A DNA stretch of 64,000 nucleotides from Ruegeria aquimaris (GTDB lineage Bacteria; Pseudomonadota; Alphaproteobacteria; Rhodobacterales; Rhodobacteraceae), in NCBI RefSeq assembly GCF_025751555.1, contig NZ_JAOWLB010000009.1, forward strand, positions 62,001 to 126,000. The letters are read 5' to 3'. The notes below the pieces were generated by a model. It saw only the letters and a program-made list of their open reading frames with translations. It was not told where the DNA came from and made no database searches. Below are positions 391-63,933 of the stretch, one piece after another. The number at the start of each line of letters is the position of its first letter. The first letter of the stretch is position 1. The translations under genes and the position numbers were made by a program.

Positions 391-3300
391 TCAGGCGACC
401 AGCGCCTCGGCCTTCTTCAGGTCGACCGAGACCAGCTGGCTGACGCCCTTTTCCTGCATGGTCACGCCAAACAGCCTGTCCATCCGCGCCATAGTCACCG
501 CGTGGTGGGTGATGATCAGGAACCTTGTGTCGGTCTGGCGGCACATCTCGTCCAAGAGGTCGCAGAACCGGGTCACGTTGGCATCGTCAAGCGGCGCGTC
601 CACCTCGTCGAGCACGCAGATCGGCGCAGGGTTGGCCAGGAACACGGCAAAGATTAGCGCCATCGCAGTCAGCGTCTGCTCGCCGCCCGACAAAAGCGAC
701 AGGGTCGACAGTTTCTTGCCCGGCGGTTGGCACATGATTTCGAGGCCCGCATCCAGCGGGTCGTCGCTTTCGACCATGACCAGATTGGCCTCGCCGCCGC
801 CAAACAGGTGGCGGAACAGCATGGCAAAGTTCGAGTTGACCTGCTCAAACGCGGTAAGCAGCCGCTCGCGCCCCTCGCGGTTGAGGCTGGCAATGCCGCT
901 GCGCAAGGTCTTGACCGCCTCTTCCAGGTCGCTCTTTTCCTTGGACAGCGAGTCGAACTCTTCCTGCACCTCGCGTGCATCCTCTTCGGCGCGCAGGTTG
1001 ACCGCGCCCATCGCGTCGCGCTGGCGCTTGTGGCGGTTGACCTCGGCCTCGAGCGCATCGCTGTCGGGCATGGCATCGGGTTCCACGCCCAGCTTGGACA
1101 ACAACTGGTTCGGCGTCACCTGCTGTTCCTCGGCGATACGTTCGGCGGCGGCCTGCATGGTCTCGCGGGCGGCCTCGGCCCGGGCCTCGGCAGCCGCCCG
1201 GCCCTCGCGCGCCTCAGAGGCGAGGCGGGCAGCCTCGCGCTCGGCCAAAGCGGCCTCGCGGTGTTTCGTCTCGCCTGCGGCGAGCCGATCCGCGGCCTCG
1301 GCCCTGCGGGCCTCGGCCGTTTCCGTCTGTTCCGCCAGCTCCTCCCGCGCCTCGGCGATTTCGCCGGGCACCTGGATCGCTTCGGTCAGTTCCTCTTCCG
1401 AAGCGGCCTTACGTTCTTCCAGTTCGGCGATGCGCTTGCCCGCGGTCTCCAGCCGGTGGCGCCAGCCGCTGAGGTCCTTGGTCACCTCCTGCGCGCGCTT
1501 GGTGCGGGCCTCGCCCTCGCGGCGCACCTCGTCATGGTTGGAACGATGCGTCAGCATGGTGATCCGCGCCGCCTCGACCGCGTGGCGGATATCCTCGACC
1601 GAGGCGCGCGCGGTGTCGAGATCACCCAGGTCGGCCAACCCCGCCTCGGCCTCGCGCAGCTGCGCGCGGGCGGCCATCGCGTCTTCCTTGTGGCGGGTGA
1701 CGGCCAGGCCAAGCGTTTCCAGCCGGCCCTGGGCCAGGTTGCGCTCAGCCTCGGCCCGGCTTTGGGCGCGGGCGGCTTCGGCCATCCGCTGGTCGGCGGC
1801 GCGGCGGGCATCGCGGGCCTGACGGTCGGCCTCGGTCACCTCACGCAGGCGCTGCAACAGGCGGTTATGGGCGGCGCGCGCGCCTTCGGCGCGGGCACTG
1901 ACCTGCGCCATTTCCTGTTTCAGCGCCTCCAGCCGGTTGAGCTGTTCCAGCCGCATCGCCGCCGCACTGGGGGCGTCCTGCGCCCAGGCGCGGAACCCGT
2001 CCCAGCGCCACAGATCGCCTTCGAGACTGACCAGCCGCTGACCGGGTTTCAGCGCCGCCTGTAAGCGGGCCCCGGTGGCGGCATCGACCAGACCGATCTG
2101 CGCGATGCGGCGGCTCAGCCGGTCGGGGCCGGAGACATGCAGCGCCAGCGGCTCGGCGCCCTCGGGCAATGGCTGGCCGTGGTCGTAATCGGGAAGGTCG
2201 AGCCAGCCCGAGGGCCCCTCGCCCTCGACCAGCGGTGCGCGCAGGTCGTCGGCCAGCGCCGCGCCCAGCGCCTTTTCATAACCCGGCTGCACCCGCATCA
2301 GGTCGAGCACATGCCCGCCCTCGGCGGTATCGCGTTCGACCAGTTTGGACAGAGCGCCGGTTTCGGCGCGGATGGCACCCAGCTCGCCCTCGGCCTCGGA
2401 GAGCTGCGCGCGGGCTTCGGCCTCGCGCGCCTGTGTCTCGCCGCGCAACTCGTCAGCGGCGGCCAGCGCCTCTTCGGCAGCCTCGGCAGCCTCGGCAGCC
2501 TCTTCGGCGGCACTCTCGGCACCCTCATAGGCCTCGCCCGCGCGGCCCAGCGCCGAGTGGGCCTCCTCGACCGCGCCCCGGGCGCGGGTCTCCTCGGCCT
2601 CGGAGCGGGCCAGCGTCTTGCGGCTGTCCTCGACCAGACGCTGGGCCGATTGGTGGCGGGCCGCCAGCCGCGCCACGTCCTCGGTCACCTGGCTCAGATG
2701 ATCCTCGCGCTCTTGCAGGACGGCAGCCGCCTCTCGGGCCAGTTCCCCCGCCTCGGCCAGACGGTCGGCATGGCCGGCACCGGCCTTGGACAGCTCGCGC
2801 GCCTCCCATTCCAGCCGCTCGATCGTGTCGCCCGCGTCGCGGTTCAGCCCGGTCTCGCGCTCGATATCGCGGCCCAATTGCGCAATGCGCGCGGTCAGAA
2901 CCTCGATCTGCTGGCGGGCGCGCTGTTCCTGATCGTTGAGCGCGTCGCGCTGCACATGCAAACGCTGGAGCACGGCACCGGCAATTGCCTCTTCCTCGCG
3001 CAGTGCAGGCAGCGCCGCCTCGGTCTCGGCGCGCAATGTCTCGGCCTGCCGCGCGGCCGCCTCGGCCCGCGAGGCATCAAGCGTGCGATGGCGCAACACC
3101 TCTTCGGCCTTGGCGCGCGCCTCGTCGGCATCGCGCCAACGGCGATAGAGCAACTGCCCTTCGGCCAACCGCAACTGCTCACCGATCTCGCGATAGCGCG
3201 CCGCCTGCCGGGCCTGACGCGCCAGTTGCGCCAGTTGGGTGCCCAGTTGCTCCAGCACGTCATCAACACGGGTCAGGTTGGTCTCGGTGCCCTTCAGCTT

Positions 3301-3846
3301 CAACTCGGCCTCGTGCCGCCGCTGGTAAAGCCCGGAAATCCCCGCCGCCTCTTCCAGGATGCGGCGGCGCGAGGTGGGTTTGGCGTTGATCAGCTCGGCG
3401 ATCTGGCCCTGGCGCACCAGCGCCGGGGAATGCGCCCCGGTCGAGGCATCGGCGAACAGGATCTGGATGTCGCGGGCGCGCACGTCCTTGCCGTTGGCCT
3501 TGTAGGCGCTGCCCACATCGCGGGTGATACGGCGCACGATTTCCAGCTGGTCGGCATCGTTGAACCCCGAGGGCGCCAAGCGCTCGGAATTGTCCAAGAG
3601 CAGCGTGACCTCGGCAAAGTTGCGCGCCGGGCGCGAAGATGCCCCGGCAAAGATCACGTCCTCCATACCGCCGCCACGCATCGCCTTGGGGCGGTTCTCG
3701 CCCATCACCCAGCGCAGCGCCTCCAGCAGGTTGGATTTCCCGCACCCATTCGGCCCCACGACACCAGTCAACCCGTCCGCTATGATCAGATCGGTCGGGT
3801 CAACAAAGCTCTTGAAGCCGTTCAGTTTGAGGCGCGTGAAACGCAA
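391..3846 (-). CDS. smc: Chromosome segregation protein SMC
   Basis: The 1151-aa protein has the full SMC layout. An N-terminal ATPase half carries Walker A GPNGCGKS at residues 31-38. Two very long Ala/Glu/Arg-rich coiled coils flank a hinge at roughly residues 500-640. A C-terminal head carries the ABC signature LSGGEQ and the Walker B/D-loop CVLDEVDAPLDD. SMC entraps and organises DNA with ScpA/ScpB to resolve sister chromosomes; the length fits bacterial SMC. The start that gives the canonical MRFTRLKLNGFKSF N-terminus is a TTG codon (base 3846); no in-frame ATG fits better. scpA/scpB are not in the window. Confidence 0.97.
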   Translation of the reverse strand: MRFTRLKLNGFKSFVDPTDLIIADGLTGVVGPNGCGKSNLLEALRWVMGENRPKAMRGGGMEDVIFAGASSRPARNFAEVTLLLDNSERLAPSGFNDADQLEIVRRITRDVGSAYKANGKDVRARDIQILFADASTGAHSPALVRQGQIAELINAKPTSRRRILEEAAGISGLYQRRHEAELKLKGTETNLTRVDDVLEQLGTQLAQLARQARQAARYREIGEQLRLAEGQLLYRRWRDADEARAKAEEVLRHRTLDASRAEAAARQAETLRAETEAALPALREEEAIAGAVLQRLHVQRDALNDQEQRARQQIEVLTARIAQLGRDIERETGLNRDAGDTIERLEWEARELSKAGAGHADRLAEAGELAREAAAVLQEREDHLSQVTEDVARLAARHQSAQRLVEDSRKTLARSEAEETRARGAVEEAHSALGRAGEAYEGAESAAEEAAEAAEAAEEALAAADELRGETQAREAEARAQLSEAEGELGAIRAETGALSKLVERDTAEGGHVLDLMRVQPGYEKALGAALADDLRAPLVEGEGPSGWLDLPDYDHGQPLPEGAEPLALHVSGPDRLSRRIAQIGLVDAATGARLQAALKPGQRLVSLEGDLWRWDGFRAWAQDAPSAAAMRLEQLNRLEALKQEMAQVSARAEGARAAHNRLLQRLREVTEADRQARDARRAADQRMAEAARAQSRAEAERNLAQGRLETLGLAVTRHKEDAMAARAQLREAEAGLADLGDLDTARASVEDIRHAVEAARITMLTHRSNHDEVRREGEARTKRAQEVTKDLSGWRHRLETAGKRIAELEERKAASEEELTEAIQVPGEIAEAREELAEQTETAEARRAEAADRLAAGETKHREAALAEREAARLASEAREGRAAAEARAEAARETMQAAAERIAEEQQVTPNQLLSKLGVEPDAMPDSDALEAEVNRHKRQRDAMGAVNLRAEEDAREVQEEFDSLSKEKSDLEEAVKTLRSGIASLNREGRERLLTAFEQVNSNFAMLFRHLFGGGEANLVMVESDDPLDAGLEIMCQPPGKKLSTLSLLSGGEQTLTAMALIFAVFLANPAPICVLDEVDAPLDDANVTRFCDLLDEMCRQTDTRFLIITHHAVTMARMDRLFGVTMQEKGVSQLVSVDLKKAEALVA

Positions 3847-5383: not shown

Positions 5384-6154
5384 ATGCCGTTTCAAAAGGT
5401 CCAGTCCGAGAAACTCTCGACCTCGGTGGTGCGCCAGATCGAACAGTTGATCCTTCGCGGCATCCTGCGGCCGGGCGAACGCCTGCCTGCCGAGCGTGAC
5501 CTGGCCGAGCGGTTGGGGGTCTCACGACCCTCGTTGCGCGACGCGGTGGCGGAACTGCAATGCGAAGGTCTCCTGACGACCAAGGCAGGCTCGGGGGTCT
5601 ATGTTGCCGAGGTGCTCGGGAATGCGTTTTCTCCCGCGCTGACCCGCCTCTTTGCCTCTCATGACGAGGCGATGTTCGACTACCTCTCGTTCCGCCGGGA
5701 TATGGAAGGGCTGGCAGCAGAGCGCGCCGCCCGGCTGGGATCGGAAAGTGACATGAAGGTGATCCAGACCATCTTTGACAAGATGGTCGAGGCCCATAAC
5801 CGCAACAAGGGCGACGAGGAAGCGCGCCTGGATGCCGAGTTTCACATGGCGATCATCGAAGCCAGCCACAACGTGGTGATGTTGCACATGTTGCGCTCGA
5901 TGTTCGATCTGCTCCGCCAGGGGGTTTTCTACAACAGGCAGATCATGTTCCACCAGCGCACCACGCGCGAGGCGATCCTGGATCAGCACCGGATGATCAA
6001 CAACGCACTTCAAGAGCGTGATCCCGCCGGCGCCCGGGCCGCGGTCGAGGCGCATCTGAGCTATGTCGAGACGTGTCTCTCCGACCAGAAAAAGGCGGAA
6101 AAGAACGAGGCCATTGCCCGCCAGCGCCTGGAACACGAAAACGCAAGGCTCTGA
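5384..6154 (+). CDS. FadR/PdhR-subfamily GntR transcriptional regulator
   Basis: 256 aa. The N-terminal winged helix-turn-helix (about residues 8-75) contains LRPGERLPAERDLAERLGVSR and SLRDAVAELQCEGL, the GntR signature. The C-terminal all-helical FCD domain has the metal/ligand histidines expected of this subfamily (EFHMAIIEASHN, DQHRMI, EAHLSYVE). Such proteins are usually repressors responding to carboxylates such as pyruvate, lactate or glycolate. The divergent aminotransferase is the obvious candidate target. It ends 15 bp before a strong bidirectional terminator. Confidence 0.88.
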   Translation: MPFQKVQSEKLSTSVVRQIEQLILRGILRPGERLPAERDLAERLGVSRPSLRDAVAELQCEGLLTTKAGSGVYVAEVLGNAFSPALTRLFASHDEAMFDYLSFRRDMEGLAAERAARLGSESDMKVIQTIFDKMVEAHNRNKGDEEARLDAEFHMAIIEASHNVVMLHMLRSMFDLLRQGVFYNRQIMFHQRTTREAILDQHRMINNALQERDPAGARAAVEAHLSYVETCLSDQKKAEKNEAIARQRLEHENARL

Positions 6155-6169
6155 TCCTGCTGTCACAAA

Positions 6170-6200
6170 AAGAAACCCGGCTCGATGAGCCGGGTTTCTT
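6170..6200. terminator. Bidirectional intrinsic terminator between fadR-type gene and atpF
   Basis: A perfect 14-bp inverted repeat (arms 6170-6183 and 6187-6200, loop GAT) has A-rich sequence on its left and T-rich sequence on its right. It therefore gives a GC stem followed by a U-tract in either direction. It sits between the convergent ends of the regulator gene and the F0 operon. Confidence 0.9.
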
Positions 6201-6221
6201 CAATGCCGATCATTACTGCGT

Positions 6222-6782
6222 TCAGTGCAGCTTCGCGCCAACGTCAGCGATCGAAGACTCAATCAGCTTGTTCGCTTCGGCGGCGGTCATCTGCTTGGCG
6301 ATGACGTCACCTGCTGCGGCGACGGCCACCGCGATGGCCCGGTCTCGCACGTCGCGGATCGCGGCCGCCTCGGCCGACGCGATCTGGTCCTGGGCTGCAG
6401 CCAACCGGCGGGCGATCGACGCTTCGAGGTCCACTTTGGCCTGTTCGGCCGCGCGCACAGCTTCGTCCTTGGCCGCGGCAACGATGGCATTGGCCTGTCC
6501 CTGGACTTCCTTCTGCTTGCGCTCGTACGACGCCAGAAGAGCCTGTGCCTCTTCCCGCAGTTTACGGGCCTCTTCCAGATCCGACTTGATGCCGTCAGAG
6601 CGCTTGTCCAGCGCGCCGCCGATCATCGAAGGCACCTTGAAGTAGAACAGCACCGCAACAAACACGAGGAACGCGATGGTCACCACGAAATCGGTGTTCT
6701 TCAGAGAAAAGAACGGACCGCTTGCGGCGAGCGCCGGGCTGGCGAAGCCTGTGGTCAGGACAAGGGCGAGAATGTTACGCAT
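6222..6782 (-). CDS. atpF: F0F1 ATP synthase subunit b
   Basis: The 186-aa protein has an N-terminal signal-like/hydrophobic stretch, a membrane segment (FVVTIAFLVFVAVLFYFKVP, about residues 32-51) and then a long charged Ala/Glu/Lys helix ending in VGAKLH. This is the peripheral stalk subunit that ties F1 to F0 subunit a. It is the last gene of the F0 operon and starts 5 bp after atpF'. Length and layout fit the alphaproteobacterial b subunit. Confidence 0.95.
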   Translation of the reverse strand: MRNILALVLTTGFASPALAASGPFFSLKNTDFVVTIAFLVFVAVLFYFKVPSMIGGALDKRSDGIKSDLEEARKLREEAQALLASYERKQKEVQGQANAIVAAAKDEAVRAAEQAKVDLEASIARRLAAAQDQIASAEAAAIRDVRDRAIAVAVAAAGDVIAKQMTAAEANKLIESSIADVGAKLH

Positions 6783-6787
6783 GTCGC

Positions 6788-7333
6788 TTATCCTTTCATC
6801 CGGGCTTCGACGGCGCCGGCAACGGTCGCGTCATCGGCCTGGCCACCCAGCACATTCACCAATTCGCCAGCGGTATCTTTGGCAACCGCCTCGATGCTTT
6901 CCAGCGCCCCTGCCCGGATCTCGGCAATAGCCTTCTCCGATTCAGCGGCTTTGGCGGCGATTTCCGCGTCTGCCTTGGCGATGGCGTCGTTCAGTTCGGC
7001 CTGAATCTCGGCCCGGGCTTCACCGGCGATGCGCTGTGCTTCGGCGCGGGCTTCGGCCAATGCTTTGGTATAGGCTTCTTCCGCTGCAAGCGCCTTGGCC
7101 TTAAGGTCTTCGGCAGCGGCGAGGTCGTTTGTGATGGTCCCCTGCCGTTCGGCCAGGATTGCCGCGATACGCGGCAGGGCCACGCGCGACAGGACCAGAA
7201 AGACGACGACCAGCGTGATGACAAGCCAGAAGATCTGGTTCGGGAACCAGTCGAAACAGAGCTGCGGCATACCGATGGCAGAGCCATGGGAATCGACGCA
7301 GGTGCTGACAGCTCCAGTTGTTTCAGTCGCCAT
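6788..7333 (-). CDS. atpF': F0F1 ATP synthase subunit b-prime
   Basis: 181 aa: a short cytosol-facing leader with two Cys, one membrane helix ([20 protein letters not shown], about residues 33-52), then a long Ala/Glu-rich amphipathic helix. The pair b plus b-prime as separate genes is typical of phototrophic and related alphaproteobacteria, where a b/b-prime heterodimer forms the stalk. It follows atpE after an 86-bp gap that carries a stem-loop. Confidence 0.94.
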
Positions 7334-7365
7334 GTTGTCCTCCGTCGGAACGTTGTCTTTACAAC

Positions 7366-7394
7366 AGGTGGGCCGCTATGGCCTGGGCCCACCT
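7366..7394 (-). promoter_or_regulatory. Stem-loop downstream of atpE
   Basis: AGGTGGGCC (7366-7374) and GGCCCACCT (7386-7394) form a perfect 9-bp stem with an 11-nt loop in the gap between atpE and atpF'. There is no U-run, so it is not a clear terminator. It may stabilise the 3' end of an atpE mRNA or give partial attenuation. Confidence 0.6.
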
Positions 7395-7419
7395 GCGCGT
7401 AAGGATCAGGTTCCGCGAA

Positions 7420-7644
7420 TTAGACGGCGAACATCAGCAGCAGAGCGACGAGGAATGCGAAGATCCCCAGAGCTTCTGCAAATGCGATGCCGATGAACAG
7501 GGTCGCGGTTTGCGACGCGGCGGCCGAGGGGTTGCGCAGGGCGCCGGCCAGGAAGTTGCCGGCCACGTTGCCCACACCGATTGCGGCTGCGCCGGAACCG
7601 ATTGCTGCCAGGCCTGCGCCGATATGTGCGAGATCGCCTTCCAT
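7420..7644 (-). CDS. atpE: F0F1 ATP synthase subunit c
   Basis: The 74-aa proteolipid has two transmembrane hairpin helices. The first is Gly/Ala-rich ([17 protein letters not shown]), followed by the polar loop ALRNPSAA. The second carries the proton-binding carboxylate Glu ([12 protein letters not shown]). It forms the rotating c-ring. ATG 7644 is chosen over longer in-frame upstream extensions, which read through atpB in another frame. Stem-loops lie on both sides of the cistron. Confidence 0.97.
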
Positions 7645-7696
7645 GATGTGTCTCCTTACGATTGGAAGTTGAATGTCAGGGTTATCAGGTGCGTAG

Positions 7697-7715
7697 GGTG
7701 GGCAGTTTGCCCACC
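7697..7715 (-). promoter_or_regulatory. Stem-loop between atpB and atpE
   Basis: GGTGGGCA (7697-7704), loop GTT, TGCCCACC (7708-7715) is a perfect 8-bp hairpin starting 6 bp after the atpB stop. It resembles a short REP-like palindrome and lies upstream of the atpE start. Confidence 0.6.
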
Positions 7716-7721
7716 GCTGCA

Positions 7722-8504
7722 TTAGTGATGCGGATGCAGTGCGTCCTTGAGGTAGACGCAGGTCAGGATGGTGAACACGTAGGCCTGGATAAAGGCGACC
7801 AGCACCTCGAGACCGTACATCGCGGTAATCGCCAGAACCGACACCGGGCTGATCGCGGCGATGGCGGCAAAGCCTGCGAACACCTTGATCACCGCGTGGC
7901 CCGCCATGACGTTGCCGGCAAGACGGATGGAGTGGCTGACCGGACGCACGAAGTAGGAGATCAGTTCGATGATCGCCAGGATGGGGCGCAGCGCCAGCGG
8001 CGCGCTCGACACCCAGAACAGGCTCAGGAACCCGGCGCCGTTCTTGACGAAGCCCAGGATGGTCACGGTCAGGAACACCGCCAGCGCCAGCACCATGGTC
8101 ACCGCGAAATGCGAGGTGGTGGTGAAGGACTTGGGCAGCAGGCCCAGGAAGTTGGCGGTCACGATGAACATGAACAGGGTCATGACATAAGGGAAGTACT
8201 TCACCCCGTCCTTGCCGCAGATGTCCTCGACCATCTTGTAGATGAAACCATAGGCAAGTTCCGCGATCGACTGCATGCGGCCCGGAACGATGGCGCGTTT
8301 CGAGGTACTCAGCACCAGCAGGCCGATGATCGCCAGCACCGCCAGACCCATCCACAGGGTCGAGTTGGTGATGGTGAACATGCCCACCGCGCCGTCGCCG
8401 AACAGCGGCTTGACGATGAACTGATCCATCGGGTGGAAGACCAGGCTACCACCCTCTGCCGCGTGTTCTGCTGCCTTGTCTGCGGCGTGTGCTTCGCTTG
8501 CCAC
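7722..8504 (-). CDS. atpB: F0F1 ATP synthase subunit a
   Basis: The 260-aa polytopic membrane protein carries the proton half-channels. The essential Arg lies in [16 protein letters not shown], and the C-terminal helix contains [18 protein letters not shown]. The start chosen is GTG 8504, two bases after the atpI stop, giving an N-terminus ASEAHAADK before the conserved [11 protein letters not shown]. The ATG of MDQF is an alternative. The open frame continues further upstream, but that part overlaps atpI and is not credible. Confidence 0.94.
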
Positions 8505-8506
8505 GT

Positions 8507-8851
8507 CTAGTCCCTCTCGTCTCTCTCGACCGTTGCCTTTGCGGCTTCGGCCTCTGTCTTCGCCTGTATCTCGCGCGCGCTGCGGAGCATGACATTCACC
8601 CCGGCGGCAAGACCCAGCAATGTGAACAGCACCAGGAAGATCGGGATTGTCCCGAACAGGCTGTCCAGCCCGTACCCGATGCCAAATCCGATCCCCAGAC
8701 CGGAAACCATCTCGATCACCATCCGCCAGGCCAATTCGCCTTGGGCATGGCTTGCATCCGCGCGTTTTTCGGCCTTGCTTCCGGCCTTCTTGGCCGCCGC
8801 GATCCGCGCCTCCAGCTGCGTCAGCCGCTGCTTTTGGTCGTCTTCGGTCAC
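8507..8851 (-). CDS. atpI: ATP synthase accessory protein AtpI
   Basis: 114 aa. A charged N-terminal coiled stretch is followed by two membrane helices ([20 protein letters not shown] and [20 protein letters not shown]), the AtpI/NCRA arrangement. AtpI helps assemble the c-ring and may handle Mg. GTG 8851 (MTEDDQK...) has GGGAG 8 nt upstream and is preferred; GTG 8866 would add five residues. First gene of the F0 operon. Confidence 0.88.

Positions 8852-50041: not shown

Positions 50042-50045
<4 letters not shown>
49335..50045 (-). CDS. Unknown protein coupled to lon
   Basis: 236 aa. It starts in an ATGA overlap with the lon stop. The alternating hydrophobic beta strands (HLLVVGMSSSD, DILLLCQRPLFGFHGNVLLI, TAIVVDLNLGP, RCPVIVIGA) suggest an alpha/beta Rossmann-like fold such as a two-domain universal-stress relative, but the ATP loop GxxG is not clear. 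No signal peptide or membrane helix. The overlap implies a role with the protease. Convergent with oleate hydratase (43 bp). Confidence 0.6.
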
Positions 50046-52483
<2,438 letters not shown>

Positions 52484-52541
52484 GATAGCCACCTCGCGTG
52501 CTCCAGTTGCCTCCAATCTAGGCATCGAGGAAAAGCGCGCG

Positions 52542-52555
52542 TTGATCTCTATCAA
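52542..52555. promoter_or_regulatory. Perfect FNR/FnrL box upstream of lon
   Basis: TTGAT-CTCT-ATCAA, 10/10 match to the FNR consensus. The box centre is about 65 bp before the lon ATG (52483) on the minus strand, so a class II start near 52507 would leave a 24-nt leader. Confidence 0.75.
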
Positions 52556-52848: not shown

Positions 52849-53154
52849 TTCATAACCTAAGCTTTCTTCTCGTTCGCGCGACCCAGGCCCGCAGCCAGAC
52901 AGACAATAACCGGTCTACATAAACTCAGAAAGAAAGACCCAGGGGTGCTGTAAAACAGACTCGAACTGATCTCACCTCGGGCACCTGCGGGCCATGAATT
53001 CAGGCAATTGCTTTCGTCGGTGACCTGCCGCTGCCTGCGTTTTCGTGATTTTACCCACGGTTGCTGGTTTTGGGATTTGGCGTTGATGTAAACGCGGGAG
53101 AGCGTGTGGTATGGGAATACCATCGGCCTATGCGTTTGATCTTGTTTGACAAAA
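52849..53154 (-). other. Gene-free stretch before the tRNA fragment
   Basis: About 300 bp with no credible gene; an 88-codon minus frame has no recognisable character. This is probably native sequence downstream of the initiator tRNA locus where the element integrated. Confidence 0.4.
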
Positions 53155-53201
53155 TGGTTGCGGGAGCAGGATTTGAACCTGCGACCTTCAGGTTATGAGC
53201 C
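53155..53201 (-). other. Initiator tRNA 3' fragment (attachment-site scar)
   Basis: Read on the minus strand, the 47 nt run from GGCTCATAACC (anticodon CAU) through the T-arm GGTTCAAATCC to CGCAACCA. They match the 3' part of an alphaproteobacterial tRNA-fMet including CCA. The D-arm and acceptor 5' strand are missing, so it is not a tRNA gene. Such fragments mark one end of an element that integrated into a tRNA 3' end; here the element lies to the right and the intact tRNA should be at its far end. Confidence 0.75.
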
Positions 53202-53571: not shown

Positions 53572-54678
53572 ATGAGCCTAGAATCGGAAATCAAAGAAGC
53601 GCGACAAACCGTCGTTACCGACGGCTACGACATGTCTATCGGCGAGGTCATCAATCTTTACAAAAATGAAGAGCTCGTGATCGCACCCGCATTCCAGCGG
53701 CTCTTCCGCTGGGACGACGAACGCAAAACTCGTTTTATCGAGTCCATTATTCTTGGTATCCCCTTCCCCCCAATATTTGTTCATCAAGATTCCGAAGGGG
53801 TGTGGGAACTTATCGACGGTCTCCAGAGGGTCTCCACGATTCTCCAACTGACAGGAGACCTTCAAGGTGAACGTGCCGATCAACTAGGCCCGCTGGTACT
53901 AAATGGTACAAAGTTTCTCCCTAGCCTGAGCGGAAAACGCTGGACTGAATCGGCTGAAGGTGCAGGCGACGGTCTGGGAACGTCCATCCAACTCGCTATC
54001 AAGCGCTCCCGAGTAAGAGTTGAAATCCTGCAAGCTGGAAGCTCTAAGACCGCTAAGTACGAGTTGTTTCAACGATTAAACACTGGTGGCGCCGACCTGA
54101 GTCCCCAAGAGGTCCGGAACAGCATCGCCGTCTCGATCAATAACGACTTCTTCAATTGGCTCGTTCAGCTCGCAAGCAGCCCGTCTTTCGTGGCGACCAC
54201 ACGCCAGACTCAGGCCGCTCTAGAGTCTCAAGCAGGTGTCGAACTTGCTCTACGCTTCATCGCCTTCCGCAACATTCCATATCAAAGCGGAATGGATGTT
54301 CATGAGTATCTGGATGACGCTTTGATCAATCTCGCCAGCGACGAGAACTTCGACAAGGATGCTGAAGAGGAAAATTTCAATAGGACGTTCGAGTTTTTGA
54401 ATGCAGCGCTTGGTGACAAGGCATTTCAACGTTGGGACGGCCAGAATTTCTCTGGAAAGTTCCTGATGTCGATTTTCGAAGTACTTGCGATCGGGCTCTC
54501 CAAGAACCTCGCATCTTACGAGGCGATGGGGGAAGTCGAACGAAATCATTCAATTGAGACAAAGGCGCAATCACTAAACGGCATACCGGTTTTCGTCGAA
54601 AATTCTGGTGCAGGAATAAGGGGCACCACGCGCTTGTCCAAACTGCTCCCAGTGGCGGAAGCTCTAATCAAGCCGTGA
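53572..54678 (+). CDS. DUF262 (ParB/Srx-fold) protein
   Basis: 368 aa. The N-terminal DUF262 domain has FQRLFRW (residues 41-47), DGLQR (82-86, the DGQQR-type catalytic/NTP motif) and a later FQRLNTGGADLSPQEVRN. The C-terminal part is helical. DUF262 proteins (for example GmrS-type) can use NTP to restrict modified DNA or act as nucleases in defence. GC is lower than in the core genes. It precedes, by 7 bp, a HEPN protein. Start ATG 53572. Confidence 0.85.
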   Translation: MSLESEIKEARQTVVTDGYDMSIGEVINLYKNEELVIAPAFQRLFRWDDERKTRFIESIILGIPFPPIFVHQDSEGVWELIDGLQRVSTILQLTGDLQGERADQLGPLVLNGTKFLPSLSGKRWTESAEGAGDGLGTSIQLAIKRSRVRVEILQAGSSKTAKYELFQRLNTGGADLSPQEVRNSIAVSINNDFFNWLVQLASSPSFVATTRQTQAALESQAGVELALRFIAFRNIPYQSGMDVHEYLDDALINLASDENFDKDAEEENFNRTFEFLNAALGDKAFQRWDGQNFSGKFLMSIFEVLAIGLSKNLASYEAMGEVERNHSIETKAQSLNGIPVFVENSGAGIRGTTRLSKLLPVAEALIKP

Positions 54679-54685
54679 GGTTGGT

Positions 54686-55330
54686 ATGGCCGCTACACGA
54701 ACGTTGGATCAGTTGCAGGACGCCATGGACCAAGAATTGTCTTGGCGCATCAAAGAGATTAGCACCTTCCGCGTTGAATCTGCAAAGGGCGGGCAAAAGA
54801 GCAAGGCGTTCACTCGCGCTGGCGTCGCCCTGCTGTACGCCCACTGGGAAGGTTTCGTAAAACGATCGGCAGAGCTCTACCTTGAATACGTTTCGAACCG
54901 AGGTCTCAAATACGAAGAACTCACAACTTGTTTCGTCCTCTTTGGACTTAAAGGAAAGTTGAACACCCTTGTCGACTCGCGAAAATCGGCGCCAAATATC
55001 GAAGCTATCGAGTTCATCCGCAGTTCTCTTGGCGAGGTAGCCGCCTTGAAATTAGCGGGTGCAGTAAACACAGAGTCTAATCTCTCTTCGAGCGTCTTCG
55101 AAAACATTGCCAACTCTGTCGGAGTGTCCACCGCCCCCTACAAAACAAAATTCAATCTGATTGATTCAAGTCTCGTAGATCGACGAAACAAGATAGCCCA
55201 CGGAGAGTATCTCGATCTGAAATCCGGCGACTTTGGCCCACTTGTCGACGAAGTCTTGAACCTCATGCGTTCGTTTAAGAACGATTTGCTCAATGCCGCC
55301 GCGACCGAGGCATACAAGAAAACCGCCTAG
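54686..55330 (+). CDS. HEPN-domain protein (MAE_28990/MAE_18760 type)
   Basis: 214 aa, all-helical. The HEPN ribonuclease motif R-x4-H lies at Arg167-His172 in DRRNKIAHGEY. The N-terminal helix ALLYAHWEGFVKRSAELYL is typical of the MAE_28990/MAE_18760 branch. HEPN proteins are usually RNases that kill or stop growth on phage infection. Paired 7 bp downstream of a DUF262 gene, in line with reported DUF262-HEPN defence pairs, where one partner senses and the other cleaves RNA. Confidence 0.85.
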   Translation: MAATRTLDQLQDAMDQELSWRIKEISTFRVESAKGGQKSKAFTRAGVALLYAHWEGFVKRSAELYLEYVSNRGLKYEELTTCFVLFGLKGKLNTLVDSRKSAPNIEAIEFIRSSLGEVAALKLAGAVNTESNLSSSVFENIANSVGVSTAPYKTKFNLIDSSLVDRRNKIAHGEYLDLKSGDFGPLVDEVLNLMRSFKNDLLNAAATEAYKKTA

Positions 55331-55550: not shown

Positions 55551-55623
55551 GTCCCAGCCTTGTGATCCGACTTGATCGTGGCGCGGGTCTAGGCCTGTGT
55601 CGGAGGACAAGGAGGTGAGTTGC

Positions 55624-56895
55624 ATGGTCAAGAGGCTGAAACTGAATGAGAAAACCCTGCGCGAGGCCGAGCCGAGGGCGGGCGCCAGCTATCAGATCTT
55701 CGACACCGAGGTGATCGGTTTCGCCGCCCGGGTCCAGGCCTCCGGCGCGCGGACCTTCACCATCGACTATCGCCATGCCGGACGGCAGCGGCGGATGACC
55801 ATCGGTCGCTGGCCCGAATGGAGCGTGACAGCCGCGCGCGAACGCGCCAAGGAGCTGCGCCGCGCAATCGATGACGGACAGGATCCGCTGGCGGCTCGGG
55901 AAGAGATCCGCGGCGCCCCGCGCGTCACGGACATGATCGACCGCTACATCGCCGAGCATCTGCCGAAGCTGTCCAAGACCAACGCGGGCGATCAGATCTC
56001 GATGCTGAAGAAAATGGTCGAACCTGCCTGGGGCACCAAGCTCGTGACGGAGATCACCAAACCCGACGTGGCGCGGTTCCTGGATGTCGTGGCCGAAGGC
56101 CGTCCCCGCCCCTGCAAGCAAAAACCCAACAACCGGGCGCGCAAGCTGCAGGGCCACAAACCCACCCCGATCCGCGCCAACCGAATGGGCGAGGTGCTGC
56201 GCAAGATGTTCACACTGGCGATGGAATGGGAGTGGCGGCAGGATAATCCGGCACAAGGTTTTCACCGGCGCATCGAGCATGCCCGTGAACGCTTCCTCTC
56301 CCCCGAAGAACTGATCCGTCTGGCAACCGTACTCGACGGCGCCGAGGATCAGCGGGCAGCCGCGATCATCCGCATGTGCATGCTGACCGGCGCCCGGGTC
56401 GGAGAGGTCCGGACAGCACGGTTCGAACAGTTCAACCTCGACTATGCCATCTGGTCGAAACCTGCCTCGACCACGAAACAACGCAAGATCCATCGCGTGC
56501 CGGTCTCGCAGGAAGTCGTGGCCATCGTGCGTCAGCGCCAGCTTGTCGTGCCGAGGGGCAATCCCTGGCTCTTCCCCGGCGATATTGTCGGCCAGCCGGT
56601 GCGGGAAATCCGGCGGTTCTGGGCGAGGGTCCAGAAAGATGCCAGTCTGGCCGATGTCCGTATCCATGACCTGCGCCATACCTTCGCCTCGCTGCTGGTA
56701 AGCGGTGGCTCTTCCCTGGAAATGATCGGCAAGCTCTTGGGTCACAGCCAGATGCAGACGACGCAGCGCTATGCGCATCTGATGGATTCCCCATTGCGCG
56801 CAGGGGTTGATACGGTGGCCAGCCTCCTGCGCCCGCGGCCGCGCCTCGTGCATGACGCCGCGCTGGACGAAGCCGATCTCCCGAAATCGGCCTGA
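55624..56895 (+). CDS. P4-type tyrosine integrase
   Basis: 423 aa from ATG 55624 (GGAGGT 7 nt upstream; the frame extends to GTG 55597). It has an N-terminal DUF4102-type arm-binding domain, a core SAM-like domain (about residues 95-200) and a catalytic domain with Arg about 258 (TGARVGE), His-x-x-Arg about 348-351 (HDLRHTF), GHSQMQTTQ and Tyr about 383 (QRYAH). It integrates the element, typically at a tRNA 3' end. It reads away from the tRNA scar, with the DUF262-HEPN pair between. Confidence 0.95.
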   Translation: MVKRLKLNEKTLREAEPRAGASYQIFDTEVIGFAARVQASGARTFTIDYRHAGRQRRMTIGRWPEWSVTAARERAKELRRAIDDGQDPLAAREEIRGAPRVTDMIDRYIAEHLPKLSKTNAGDQISMLKKMVEPAWGTKLVTEITKPDVARFLDVVAEGRPRPCKQKPNNRARKLQGHKPTPIRANRMGEVLRKMFTLAMEWEWRQDNPAQGFHRRIEHARERFLSPEELIRLATVLDGAEDQRAAAIIRMCMLTGARVGEVRTARFEQFNLDYAIWSKPASTTKQRKIHRVPVSQEVVAIVRQRQLVVPRGNPWLFPGDIVGQPVREIRRFWARVQKDASLADVRIHDLRHTFASLLVSGGSSLEMIGKLLGHSQMQTTQRYAHLMDSPLRAGVDTVASLLRPRPRLVHDAALDEADLPKSA

Positions 56896-60765: not shown

Positions 60766-62031
60766 ATGCCCAGGGACAGAGCAGAAATGACTGAGTTTGA
60801 AGAACTGCTGATGAAGGCAGGATACACGGTGCCGGAAGCGGCAAAAGCGCTCGGTTACTCAGAAGGTCATATCTACCGGTTCAAACGAGGGGAAGATACA
60901 CCACGGGAAAGCGTTCTCGAATTACTCCGCATGAAGGTTGCTGCGCGTTCTGCGGGTTCCGGCGAGCCTGCGTCGTTTACTTTCGTTGATCTTTTTGCCG
61001 GAATAGGCGGGCTTCGGAAGGCTATGGAATCCAACGACGGAAGATGTGTATTCACCTCCGAATGGGACCGTTTTGCGCAACAGACCTACCTCGCAAATTT
61101 TCCCGACAACCGACCAATCGCCGGTGACATCCGGGAGGTAACTGCCGATGACATTCCTGGCCATGATGTACTAGTAGCCGGTTTCCCCTGCCAGCCATTC
61201 TCGATTGCCGGCGTCTCCAAGAAAAACGCGCTGGGCAGGCTGCACGGGTTTCAGGACGAAACGCAGGGAACTCTGTTTTTTGATGTCCTTCGCATCCTGA
61301 AGGCCCATCGCCCTGCAGCGTTCCTGCTGGAAAACGTCAAGAACCTGAAAAGCCATGACAAAGGCAGGACTTTTGAGGTCATAAAGCGAAAGCTGACCGA
61401 AGAGCTCGGCTACACTTTGCACACGATGATCATCGACGCCGCGCACTTTGTGCCACAGCACCGTGAGCGTATCGTTATGGTCGGCTTCCGTGAACAGACG
61501 GGATTTTGCTGGGATGACCTCGAGTTACCTGTGCGCGGTCACCGCCGCATGCGGGACATTCTGCACCCCGAAAACGGAACCGAAGTCTCGGAGGGGCATT
61601 ACACATTAGGTGATGAAGCCCGGGTGAACGACAAGTACACGCTGACCGACAAACTCTGGAAGTACCTTCAGGACTACGCCGCCAAACACAAGGCCAAGGG
61701 CAACGGATTCGGGTTCGGGCTGGTTGACGGAGAAAGCATCGCGCGGACCCTGTCGGCCCGGTATTTCAAAGACGGCTCCGAGATACTCGTCAGCCGGGGC
61801 GCCGGGAACAACCCCCGCCGCCTGACGCCGCGCGAATGCGCGCGCCTGATGGGATACGGTGAAGAGTTCCGGATTCCGGTTTCCGACACGCAGGCCTACA
61901 AACAGTTCGGAAACTCGGTCGCGGTGCCGGTTTTCGCTGAGGTGGCCCGGATCATGAAACCGCACATCCTGGAGATCCTTGGGCGGTCCGGAACTGAGCA
62001 AATACCGGAACCGGCGCGCCAGGTTGGCTGA
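60766..62031 (+). CDS. Dcm-like DNA cytosine-5 methyltransferase
   Basis: 421 aa. An N-terminal HTH extension (residues about 9-55: VPEAAKALGYSEGHIYRFKRG) is followed by FVDLFAGIGG (motif I), GFPCQPFS with catalytic Cys about 142 (motif IV), LLENVKNL (VI), PQHRERIVMVGFR (VIII) and YKQFGNSVAVPVF (X). Blocks such as GVSKKNALGRLHGFQDETQG and LWKYLQDYAAKHKAKGNGFG closely resemble E. coli Dcm, so CCWGG is the likely target. Followed by vsr with overlap. Confidence 0.93.
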   Translation: MPRDRAEMTEFEELLMKAGYTVPEAAKALGYSEGHIYRFKRGEDTPRESVLELLRMKVAARSAGSGEPASFTFVDLFAGIGGLRKAMESNDGRCVFTSEWDRFAQQTYLANFPDNRPIAGDIREVTADDIPGHDVLVAGFPCQPFSIAGVSKKNALGRLHGFQDETQGTLFFDVLRILKAHRPAAFLLENVKNLKSHDKGRTFEVIKRKLTEELGYTLHTMIIDAAHFVPQHRERIVMVGFREQTGFCWDDLELPVRGHRRMRDILHPENGTEVSEGHYTLGDEARVNDKYTLTDKLWKYLQDYAAKHKAKGNGFGFGLVDGESIARTLSARYFKDGSEILVSRGAGNNPRRLTPRECARLMGYGEEFRIPVSDTQAYKQFGNSVAVPVFAEVARIMKPHILEILGRSGTEQIPEPARQVG

Positions 62032-62551
62032 CGTACACGACAGCGAAACCCGCCGCCGCAACATGGCGGCAATACGAGGTGCCGACACGAAACCTGAACT
62101 GGAGATCAGGCGGCGGCTGCATGCGCTTGGGTTTCGGTATCGCCTGCACGACAGGAAGCTGCCTGGCCGCCCCGATCTGGTTTTCCCGATGTACCGGGCC
62201 GCCCTGTTCGTCAACGGCTGTTTCTGGCATGGGCATGATTGCGATCGGTTTCGCTGGCCGAAAACCAGCCCGGAATTCTGGCATGCGAAGATCTGCAGCA
62301 ACGTGGGCCGCGATTTGCGGAATGAGAAGGCACTTGGCCAGCTGGGCTGGCGAGTAGGTATTGTATGGGAATGCGCCATAAAAGGTCCCGGCCGTCTTCC
62401 CCCTGAAAACCTAGACAAAAAAGTTGCTGTTTTTCTGACAGGGACGGAACAGTCACTCTGGGTTCAGGGGAGCGTTAATTTAGGTCTCCGCGGGCATGAT
62501 GAGTTGCGAGGAGACCCGAACATTTTGCGTCGCGCATCCCAGTCTGCCTGA
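62024..62551 (+). CDS. vsr: Very short patch repair endonuclease
   Basis: 175 aa. ADVHDSETRRRNMAAIRG, DTKPELEIRRRLHALGFRYR, LPGRPDLVFPMYRAALFVNG (catalytic Asp) and CFWHGHDC (metal His/Cys) are diagnostic. Nicks at T:G mismatches arising when 5-methylcytosine in Dcm sites deaminates. The natural N-terminus is at TTG 62024, overlapping the methylase stop by 8 bp; the C-terminus has about 30 extra residues. Confidence 0.92.
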   Translation: MADVHDSETRRRNMAAIRGADTKPELEIRRRLHALGFRYRLHDRKLPGRPDLVFPMYRAALFVNGCFWHGHDCDRFRWPKTSPEFWHAKICSNVGRDLRNEKALGQLGWRVGIVWECAIKGPGRLPPENLDKKVAVFLTGTEQSLWVQGSVNLGLRGHDELRGDPNILRRASQSA

Positions 62552-62556
62552 ATTGG

Positions 62557-63933
62557 TCAGCCAGCCAATTCGTCGGAAAGAGCAATGATCCGGACATCGG
62601 TGTAGAGGTCGTGTGCAGCCGCTGCGATGTCATTTACCCTCCACTGTGAACGGCGCTTATTCAGCTTTGGGTTTCCCGGGCAGAACTTCGGCGCAGGATC
62701 AAGAAAAAGCGTCCCATTGTACAGCGCCTCGAACAATTGCTCGGCAGATGTTTCGCGGCACCACATCACCTGATCCGAGAATTCGACAAGATGCCCGTAG
62801 CCTTCCGCCTTGAGATCTTTGTCGGTGCATTTCGACTTCGTAGCCGGAATGTAAACGGCTTCGTTGTGTTTTGAAGTCCAGCAGTTGAGGATCCGGTCCA
62901 GCGACCATCCGGCAGCAAGTTCGTCATTGTCATCGGTCAGAGCAAGGTGGACGCCCTTGTCGGCACTTGACGCAAGTGTTGTGCCCCGATCGTGATTTTT
63001 GACCTCAAGCGTCAGGCCACTCTTGTCGCAGCGGATACCTACACGGTGTATCCCGGTCAAACGGTAGTGACCGCTACCATCCAGATACCCATGTTTTTCC
63101 ATGAACCTGTCGAAGTTTTCCGAATAGAGACCCATATCAGGCTCAGGTGTGAAGAGAGTAACCTTTTTCTGGGTATGGGTTTTGAGTTCAATCCCCTCAA
63201 AATCGCCGTGCTTGTCGCTGTTCGGGACAATGCCCAAAGCATGCTCGAGTGTGTAGCCACAAACCTGCGTTCCGTTGAATGGTAACGTCCGGCCAGCTGA
63301 ATCCAGCCTACATCCCGGCATAGGCCTTCCGGCAGCTCCGGCAAGCATTGAAATGAGCCGGGCAGGCGCTGTAGCGCGGAGCCGGAGGTGTTTCCAGACG
63401 CGCGATCCGGTGGCATTCGGCAGCTCCGCAACCTCATCCATGAAGGTGTTGGCTGGGTCTGCAACCATGACGGCAACGGCTTCACCACTCCCCCGCCGGC
63501 CAAGTACAAGATAACGTGGGACGTCTGGATAGCGCTTGGTGAATTCCACCGACATTGCTTCGGGCATAGTGTTATCGACGGTCTGGAAACCGCTCAGCCT
63601 GGTTTCCGGGTACTGAGCGTAAATGATCATTTTGACGTTGCGGGCCGGTATTTCCCGACCGGAAGCGTCTACCCAGACAAACCGCCGGAAGACAGCTTCG
63701 GGAATAGCCTGGCCCTTAGTCTTTGAACCCTTTTTCCGGCTGGTCGACGCACCCCTGAAGCTGAACTTCATATCAAACGTGGGAAACAACGGGCGGAAGT
63801 CTGAACCGGAGTAGATCTGGTTCTTGTCGTTGTGGTTTTTACTGAGAGGTTTGATGAGTGCCTCGTGCGCGCCGTGGGAAGCGAGCAAGGTTTCGACCTC
63901 TTTCAGTGAAGCTGGCGACCGTTCAAAAAACAT
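62557..63933 (-). CDS. MvaI/BcnI-family restriction endonuclease with N-terminal extension
   Basis: 458 aa. The C-terminal about 250 residues have the MvaI/BcnI core: GYTLEHALGIVPNSDKHGDF then GIELKTH, giving the Asp and Glu-x-Lys catalytic set. MvaI cuts CCWGG, in line with the Dcm-like methylase next to it. The N-terminal about 200 residues are additional to the about 250-aa canonical enzyme and have no motif I recognise. Convergent with vsr (5 bp). Confidence 0.87.
   Translation of the reverse strand: MFFERSPASLKEVETLLASHGAHEALIKPLSKNHNDKNQIYSGSDFRPLFPTFDMKFSFRGASTSRKKGSKTKGQAIPEAVFRRFVWVDASGREIPARNVKMIIYAQYPETRLSGFQTVDNTMPEAMSVEFTKRYPDVPRYLVLGRRGSGEAVAVMVADPANTFMDEVAELPNATGSRVWKHLRLRATAPARLISMLAGAAGRPMPGCRLDSAGRTLPFNGTQVCGYTLEHALGIVPNSDKHGDFEGIELKTHTQKKVTLFTPEPDMGLYSENFDRFMEKHGYLDGSGHYRLTGIHRVGIRCDKSGLTLEVKNHDRGTTLASSADKGVHLALTDDNDELAAGWSLDRILNCWTSKHNEAVYIPATKSKCTDKDLKAEGYGHLVEFSDQVMWCRETSAEQLFEALYNGTLFLDPAPKFCPGNPKLNKRRSQWRVNDIAAAAHDLYTDVRIIALSDELAG

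Follow-up and report, generated by a model that had tools for sequence, protein, structure and literature searches.

A tightly linked DUF262-HEPN gene pair at a displaced tRNA-fMet fragment in Ruegeria aquimaris, very probably an antiviral switch related to PD-T4-2

Described systems and the two genes of this locus

Among tested systems, PD-T4-2 comes nearest; protection of E. coli against T4 was seen both with the cloned system and in its strain of origin (Vassallo et al, 2022, PMC9519451, in the part on this system). The section of a review that deals with it gives its composition as DUF262 plus HEPN and files it under PF18735 (PMC10952713). The pairing of the two families was recorded earlier, when Anantharaman et al (2013; PMC3710099) listed, from gene neighbourhoods, operons of ParB/DUF262 with a RiboL-PSP-HEPN or a MAE_28990 HEPN, the latter in operons with a "ParB nuclease" and a DNA methylase; the relevant table entry comes without linkage statistics. 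Other DUF262 proteins act with different partners. In Menshen (NsnABC) the DUF262 protein is the first gene and is accompanied by an AAA/DUF3696 ATPase and a third gene, and in GmrSD, BrxU, SspE and DndI (the DUF262-DUF1524 group) a DUF1524/HNH nuclease is fused in cis. HEPN proteins are also found in the HEPN-MNT toxin-antitoxin systems (HepT-MntA and kin), two-gene operons in which a HEPN-fold protein with an R-x4-H motif is partnered by a minimal nucleotidyltransferase.

Here we describe a DUF262-HEPN pair of Ruegeria aquimaris, located in a stretch of 64,000 nucleotides (the window; positions 62001-126000 of contig C61). The pair very probably acts as an alarm-and-kill switch against viruses, akin to the system tested in E. 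coli. No test of this pair appears in the portions covered of PMC10952713, PMC3710099, PMC12839542, PMC10853773 and PMC9519451, in a search covering mainly open-access journal papers. Its features, in window coordinates, are:

53572..54678, + strand: gene A, DUF262/GmrSD_N protein (ParB/Srx-fold, NTPase-like) of 368 aa, predicted sensor or switch (Pfam GmrSD_N, PF03235, E 1.2e-23; model pLDDT 92.4)
53815..53829, + strand: DGLQR motif, residues 82-86 of gene A (alignment and motif counts)
54686..55330, + strand: gene B, HEPN protein (RiboL-PSP/MAE_28990 type) of 214 aa, predicted RNase effector (PF18735, E 2.2e-36, and PF18737, E 6.7e-34, both above cut-off; model pLDDT 96.4)
55184..55201, + strand: putative catalytic R-x4-H motif of gene B, RNKIAH, R167-H172 (alignment and motif counts)

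The original prediction had proposed a DUF262 gene with a DGLQR motif and, 7 bp further on, a HEPN gene with R-x4-H, both from families known in defence and already reported as pairs. All of this was borne out: the stop of gene A ends at 54678, the ATG of gene B lies at 54686, and PD-T4-2 and the 2013 operons provide the reported pairings. The two genes span about 1.8 kb, and by eye a GAGG-type ribosome site stands directly 5' of both ATGs. A promoter scan found none upstream of gene A, and the region contains one promoter-like site against 1.4 expected. Both motifs are strongly conserved. DGxQR was present in all 178 retained pairs (see below) and R-x4-H in 176, the two misses being a HEPN cut by the record end (L160) and a weak 137-aa match (L041). 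In an alignment of 71 sequences, window included, D82, G83, Q85 and R86 of gene A and R167 and H172 of gene B were invariant. Neither gene had a Pfam match to a DUF1524/HNH nuclease domain, and neither was named by NCBIfam, both at E<=1.

The structure predicted for gene A (pTM 0.84) was closest to BrxU (Z 9.3 over 294 aligned residues, with a large rmsd of 13.6 A), SspE (Z 8.3, 150 aligned, 4.7 A), DndI (Z 7.2, 290 aligned, 5.7 A) and ParB with a CTP analogue (Z 6.4, 94 aligned, 3.0 A). Because these are its best structural matches, gene A is, on the model, a ParB/Srx domain followed by a helical part as in the GmrSD group, with the same DGxQR motif, but the nuclease that this group carries in cis is absent and a HEPN protein stands in trans instead. 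For gene B, the first eight VIA-align matches, two of which we presume to be HEPN proteins, were HEPN proteins and HEPN toxins, including toxins of the HEPN-MNT kind, at Z 8.5-10.2, all of these values lying below the Z of 13 that is reachable by chance for helical bundles. Since the eighth match (Z 8.5) was tied with a designed helical bundle (8.4), Pfam and the motif carry as much weight as Z in the HEPN fold call. Foldseek gave no match for gene B at E<=0.001, and matches to AbiV (Z 6.4 and 6.2) were too low for use.

Comparison with PD-T4-2 revealed the same two-gene layout, with DUF262 first and a HEPN with R-x4-H second in a small operon. PD-T4-2_A and gene A are homologous over residues 22-368 (hhalign E 2.6e-39), although in the 2023 PADLOC library gene A scored higher with NsnA (1.6e-57) than with PD-T4-2_A (2.4e-31), which was followed by ten far weaker families. 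The HEPN partners differ more. PD-T4-2_B proteins are shorter (165-169 aa), and the three that we scanned had no Pfam HEPN match and thus none to PF18735. Their alignment with gene B reached an hhalign probability of only 9.8% (three PD-T4-2_B sequences), so that the two are not recognisably the same family. No PADLOC model matched gene B at E<=1, and the PD-T4-2_B model found nothing in this genome and eight plasmid records with the window's kind of pair (0/9). The three comparison loci were identified by the PADLOC PD-T4-2_B model and are distinct from the original E. coli genes, and the composition of the system was taken from the review and from loci matching its PADLOC models. By these sequence comparisons the pair is not PD-T4-2 as PADLOC defines it, since gene B fails the HEPN family test; the review's listing of PD-T4-2 under PF18735, in the section concerned, speaks against drawing a sharp line between the two (PMC10952713). 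By analogy the pair should work like PD-T4-2, although the phenotype need not carry over because the HEPN is not recognisably of the same family.

The high NsnA score raises the question of whether the pair is a Menshen system whose other genes have been lost or not yet assigned. NsnA was the best PADLOC match of gene A, and the same held for the nine further DUF262 proteins with a HEPN partner that were tested. However, NsnB is an ATPase-like model, and four plasmid loci do have a DUF262 gene, a DUF3696 ATPase and a third gene, whereas neither an ATPase nor a third gene adjoins the present pair, in which the next gene is the HEPN. The genome has two NsnB matches (2.5e-12 and 5.4e-4), both on contigs other than this one. 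In the DUF262 tree, the Menshen-type and PD-T4-2-type proteins formed separate clades with support of 1.0 each (five ATPase-linked and three sequences only), the Menshen identity of the comparison loci being deduced from PADLOC models and the review. With no NsnB next to gene A and a separate DUF262 clade, we rejected a Menshen identity of the pair and regard this explanation as extremely improbable.

Linkage, joint inheritance and neighbouring genes

The linkage of the two genes was examined from both sides. Starting from DUF262, and taking in each set the best 80 loci by DUF262 similarity, we found that the next gene downstream, on the same strand, was a HEPN gene in 77/80 genome loci and 78/80 viral loci, some of the latter being repeated prophages. 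Starting from HEPN, a DUF262 gene lay directly upstream in 16/16 viral loci and in all five genomes with a match (299 sampled, own genome excepted), so that none of these 21 HEPN-first loci had a HEPN of this type without DUF262. The five DUF262 loci lacking HEPN comprised three whose records end at DUF262 or within 45 bp (L129, L154 and L188), a fragmentary DUF262 (L092), and an intact DUF262 of Intrasporangium (L130, 4927-6613) with no HEPN in the 547 bp left on the record, the sole clear solo case. Among plasmids, the six records with a HEPN match were also the best six DUF262 records; the genes were adjacent in the five opened, in one of them across the record start (L016) and in another with a split DUF262 (L015), and the sixth (H5/H44, a near-duplicate of H4) was left out. 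A DNA-level search for the pair in plasmids gave no match, and nor did gene A alone, searched with strict patterns, in viral contigs.

After dropping 17 rows with a short or absent partner and omitting duplicate loci, we retained 178 pairs (77 from genomes, 77 viral, 14 from plasmids or phages, nine from sampled genomes, and the window). Pairs of this kind are present in at least nine phyla, as judged from record titles, and occur on plasmids and prophages. Tree distances of A and B were correlated (Pearson 0.895 for the 136 pairs below 95% identity, out of 151 passing the length limits), a value reached in none of 999 permutations. This shows joint inheritance and not contact, because permutation also breaks shared descent. 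Residue co-variation between A and B was considered as a possible interface signal (best z 6.6 against 4.3-4.9 in shuffles) and set aside, since the signals joined near-invariant columns and resemble subfamily splits. DUF262-HEPN is a near-obligate two-gene module; a two-gene module had been proposed for this locus. Another pairing variant was seen on a Hymenobacter plasmid (L045:3458-5520), where a longer DUF262 (525-aa frame) accompanies a short HEPN of 163 aa.

Tight linkage, the A-B order in a small operon, the occurrence on plasmids and prophages and the HEPN-MNT-kind toxins among the best structural matches of gene B would also suit a toxin-antitoxin system, in which the HEPN is a constitutive RNase toxin held by a DUF262 antitoxin and kept for the stability of the element instead of phage defence, any release by phage shut-off being a by-product. 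We consider this unlikely. The DUF262 protein is large, enzyme-like and common to Menshen and PD-T4-2. In addition, three loci combine a broken DUF262 with an intact HEPN ORF that includes R-x4-H:

L015 (Leptospira plasmid), 5971-7733: in-frame stop in DUF262, HEPN ORF intact
L096 (Klebsiella michiganensis), 6998-8645: frame change in DUF262 beside a C-run, possibly a sequencing error
L216 (viral contig), 6872-8697: in-frame stop in DUF262, HEPN ORF intact

No clear example emerged of the opposite arrangement, in which HEPN is broken and DUF262 intact; the nearest cases are the truncated L160, the weak L041 and L130, which has no HEPN. As a constitutive RNase without its antitoxin should not survive, the three loci appear to speak mildly against DUF262 as a plain antitoxin; they are only a hint, because there are three cases and one may be a sequencing error.

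We also asked what else accompanies the pair. Among 140 of the 144 immediate neighbours of genome pairs (those below 900 aa, chosen by a longest-ORF rule), the commonest Pfam family was Phage_integrase, with four, and the commonest PADLOC model, among the models listed, was found in three. No defence family among those listed exceeded 3/140 neighbours, and a defence-island context for the group is therefore not demonstrated. A C5 methyltransferase was found once, and no methyltransferase family in more than 1/140 neighbours, again among the families listed. There is no recurrent third gene, so the module is two genes.

Methyltransferases deserve separate treatment, as they bear on the possibility that DUF262 itself cuts or nicks modified phage DNA in the manner of the GmrSD group, a type IV restriction-like activity for which the HEPN would be a backup suicide effector. 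A fixed methyltransferase partner was rejected for the window's branch: a motif test found an adjacent same-strand methyltransferase in 0/38 loci at >=50% identity and in 0/66 at 40-50%, this test being insensitive, as it missed N4/N6 enzymes that phmmer found upstream of the divergent loci named below and Eco57I-type enzymes downstream of three others. In this the branch, as far as tested, differs from the MAE_28990 entry of 2013, which includes a DNA methylase (PMC3710099, in the entry concerned). In divergent branches, an N4/N6 methyltransferase lies upstream of the pair on a Roseomonas plasmid (L018) and in nine viral loci (L176, L179-L182, L185-L187 and L194); an Eco57I-type enzyme lies downstream in a Terrisporobacter phage (L035) and two viral loci (L173 and L174), and a C5 enzyme overlaps the downstream end in Rhodococcus (L046). 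All of these same-strand, methyltransferase-bearing pairs are at most 37% identical to that of the window. In four further loci (L122, L152, L153 and L164) a same-strand Eco57I-like methyltransferase ORF begins roughly 3.6 kb upstream of the DUF262 end, and opposite-strand methyltransferases follow the pair in L013, L014, L036 and L039. The divergent pairs with a same-strand methyltransferase, of three unrelated kinds, are candidate restriction-modification systems with a predicted RNase arm, and they echo the remark of 2013 on MAE_28990 HEPN, ParB nuclease and DNA methylase (PMC3710099, in the same entry).

These branches, the kinship of DUF262 to BrxU, SspE and DndI, and the name "ParB nuclease" given to the partner in the 2013 entry (PMC3710099) argue for a DNA-cutting DUF262. 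Against it, gene A has no DUF1524/HNH domain, an intact DUF262 without HEPN was seen in one case only (L130), and the neighbour counts and the 0/38 result give the window's branch, as far as tested, no methyltransferase companion; we judge this type IV-like explanation to be quite improbable.

The tRNA-fMet site and the island

ARAGORN found no complete tRNA within the window, but a fragment of tRNA-fMet precedes the pair and an integrase gene follows it:

53067..53154, no strand assigned: probable original downstream flank of tRNA-fMet, on the chromosomal side of the scar (84% match to congener G003)
53155..53201, - strand: 47-nt 3' fragment of tRNA-fMet, from anticodon loop to CCA, a displaced att copy (scar), identical to the intact copies
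55597..56895, + strand: tyrosine integrase with a P4-like arm domain, outside the two-gene module (PF00589, E 5.4e-22; PF13356, Arm-DNA-bind_3, E 1.8e-17)

Two intact tRNA-Met(CAT) copies of the same genome end in exactly these 47 nt. One closes contig C61 (156660-156736, shared part 156660-156706), and the other opens contig C42 (shared part C42:1-47), which carries 16S-tRNA-tRNA-23S-5S-tRNA. As the whole 77-nt tRNA is present on both contig ends, C61 probably continues into the rRNA operon. Searches with words down to 13 nt found only two copies of the core in C61:111001-156736, and these two copies therefore bound a stretch of about 41.5 kb. An identical 47-nt direct repeat of a tRNA 3' end, with its copies 41.5 kb apart and an integrase 2.4 kb from one of them, is the pattern expected of a tRNA-integrated island. 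The position originally assigned to the pair, between an initiator-tRNA scar and an integrase at the tRNA edge of an integrated element, was accordingly correct; as for the att sites placed next to it, one is the scar, whereas the second is not beside the pair and lies outside the window, about 41.5 kb away.

The gene pair is foreign by composition, its G+C being 51% in gene A and 50% in gene B, whereas the integrase has 64% and the window 62%. Window positions 53067-53201 are matched at 84% by an intact tRNA-Met of the congener G003 together with the sequence downstream of it, which fits the scar side being the original flank; in G003 the tRNA and near flank are intact, the farther left flank lies elsewhere in the genome, and a clean empty site was not found. 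DUF262 of this kind was absent from all four congeners searched (G001-G004, E<=1e-20) and present in five other genomes of 147 searched, the best at 65% identity and belonging to the window's family. Because of this distribution, the pair looks like a recent arrival.

The stretch of about 41.5 kb starts with the gene pair, the integrase and a restriction-modification cluster. Its far part (C61:128-144 kb, ten ORFs scanned) encodes FtsX/MacB, OprB, three amidohydrolases, an AraC regulator and a phospholipase-D-like protein. The stretch may be composite, since its integrase sits at the end with the scar, away from the intact tRNA, and its far part resembles chromosomal DNA. The restriction-modification cluster (window 60766-63933) includes a Dcm-like C5 methyltransferase with weak N-terminal helix-turn-helix matches, a Vsr nickase and a convergent restriction enzyme of the MvaI/BcnI family, and it is followed by an N4/N6 methyltransferase at C61:126607. 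To the left of the scar, a LonB-like AAA protease is encoded at window 50042-52555.

The pair was also found next to a tRNA-fMet in a tailed prophage (L140). There an intact tRNA-Met (1434-1510) is followed about 450 bp later by the pair (1967-3714), in the same edge position as in the window, and then by portal-, capsid- and terminase-like ORFs identified by eye; the element is unrelated to that of the window. In a Sphingobium locus (L063) the pair lies 4 kb from a tRNA-Met, and any tRNA was found in 10 of the 86 loci examined.

Proposed mechanism and significance

We think it likely that the pair is a self-contained antiphage module in which DUF262 senses infection and activates the HEPN RNase, leading to dormancy or death. 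The original prediction had left open which partner senses and which kills; a direction can now be proposed from partner exchange. Menshen-type loci combine DUF262 of this kind with an AAA ATPase plus a third gene, and PD-T4-2-type loci combine it with a different HEPN. As DUF262 has these other partners, and no HEPN of the present type was seen lacking it, the effector would be what is exchanged and DUF262 the shared sensor or switch.

HEPN RNases usually act as dimers. In the proposed mechanism, gene A would be an NTP-binding switch of ParB/Srx fold whose helical C-terminal half resembles the part of BrxU/GmrSD outside the nuclease. Judging from GmrSD, BrxU, SspE and DndI, the cue of infection that it senses would most likely be phage DNA or a modification of that DNA; on sensing it, gene A would bind or hydrolyse an NTP and thereby activate gene B. 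Gene B, as a putative metal-independent R-x4-H RNase acting as a dimer, would then cut host and/or phage RNA, so that growth of the infected cell stops, in an abortive outcome. What this scheme adds to the parts, folds, motifs and linkage is drawn from the accounts of GmrSD, BrxU and SspE in the relevant section of PMC10952713 and of PD-T4-2 in that of PMC9519451.

A variant of this scheme, to which we give tentative and rather low credence, is a restriction system armed by RNA cleavage, in which DUF262 would read the modification of incoming DNA as GmrSD does and, leaving that DNA uncut, switch on the HEPN RNase. If so, the methyltransferase of the divergent branches would mark self in a methyltransferase-DUF262-HEPN arrangement with the RNase as the restriction arm, and in the window's branch the cue for self and non-self would come from a phage modification or from the Dcm-like methylation of the island itself.

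Whichever cue DUF262 may respond to, the family pairing as such was already listed in 2013 (PMC3710099, in its table). What is added here is that it forms a tight two-gene unit across many phyla, that the window's branch has no methyltransferase partner as far as tested, that its best PADLOC label is NsnA, and that it recurs at tRNA-fMet in an unrelated prophage. The antiphage module proposed here is a compact, widespread and tightly linked pair whose two genes are not recognised together by the 2023 PADLOC library. It would make DUF262 an exchangeable sensor that works with different effectors, HNH in cis, AAA in Menshen and HEPNs of unlike sequence, and DUF262 sensing and effector switching in trans would be directly testable in a 1.8-kb system.
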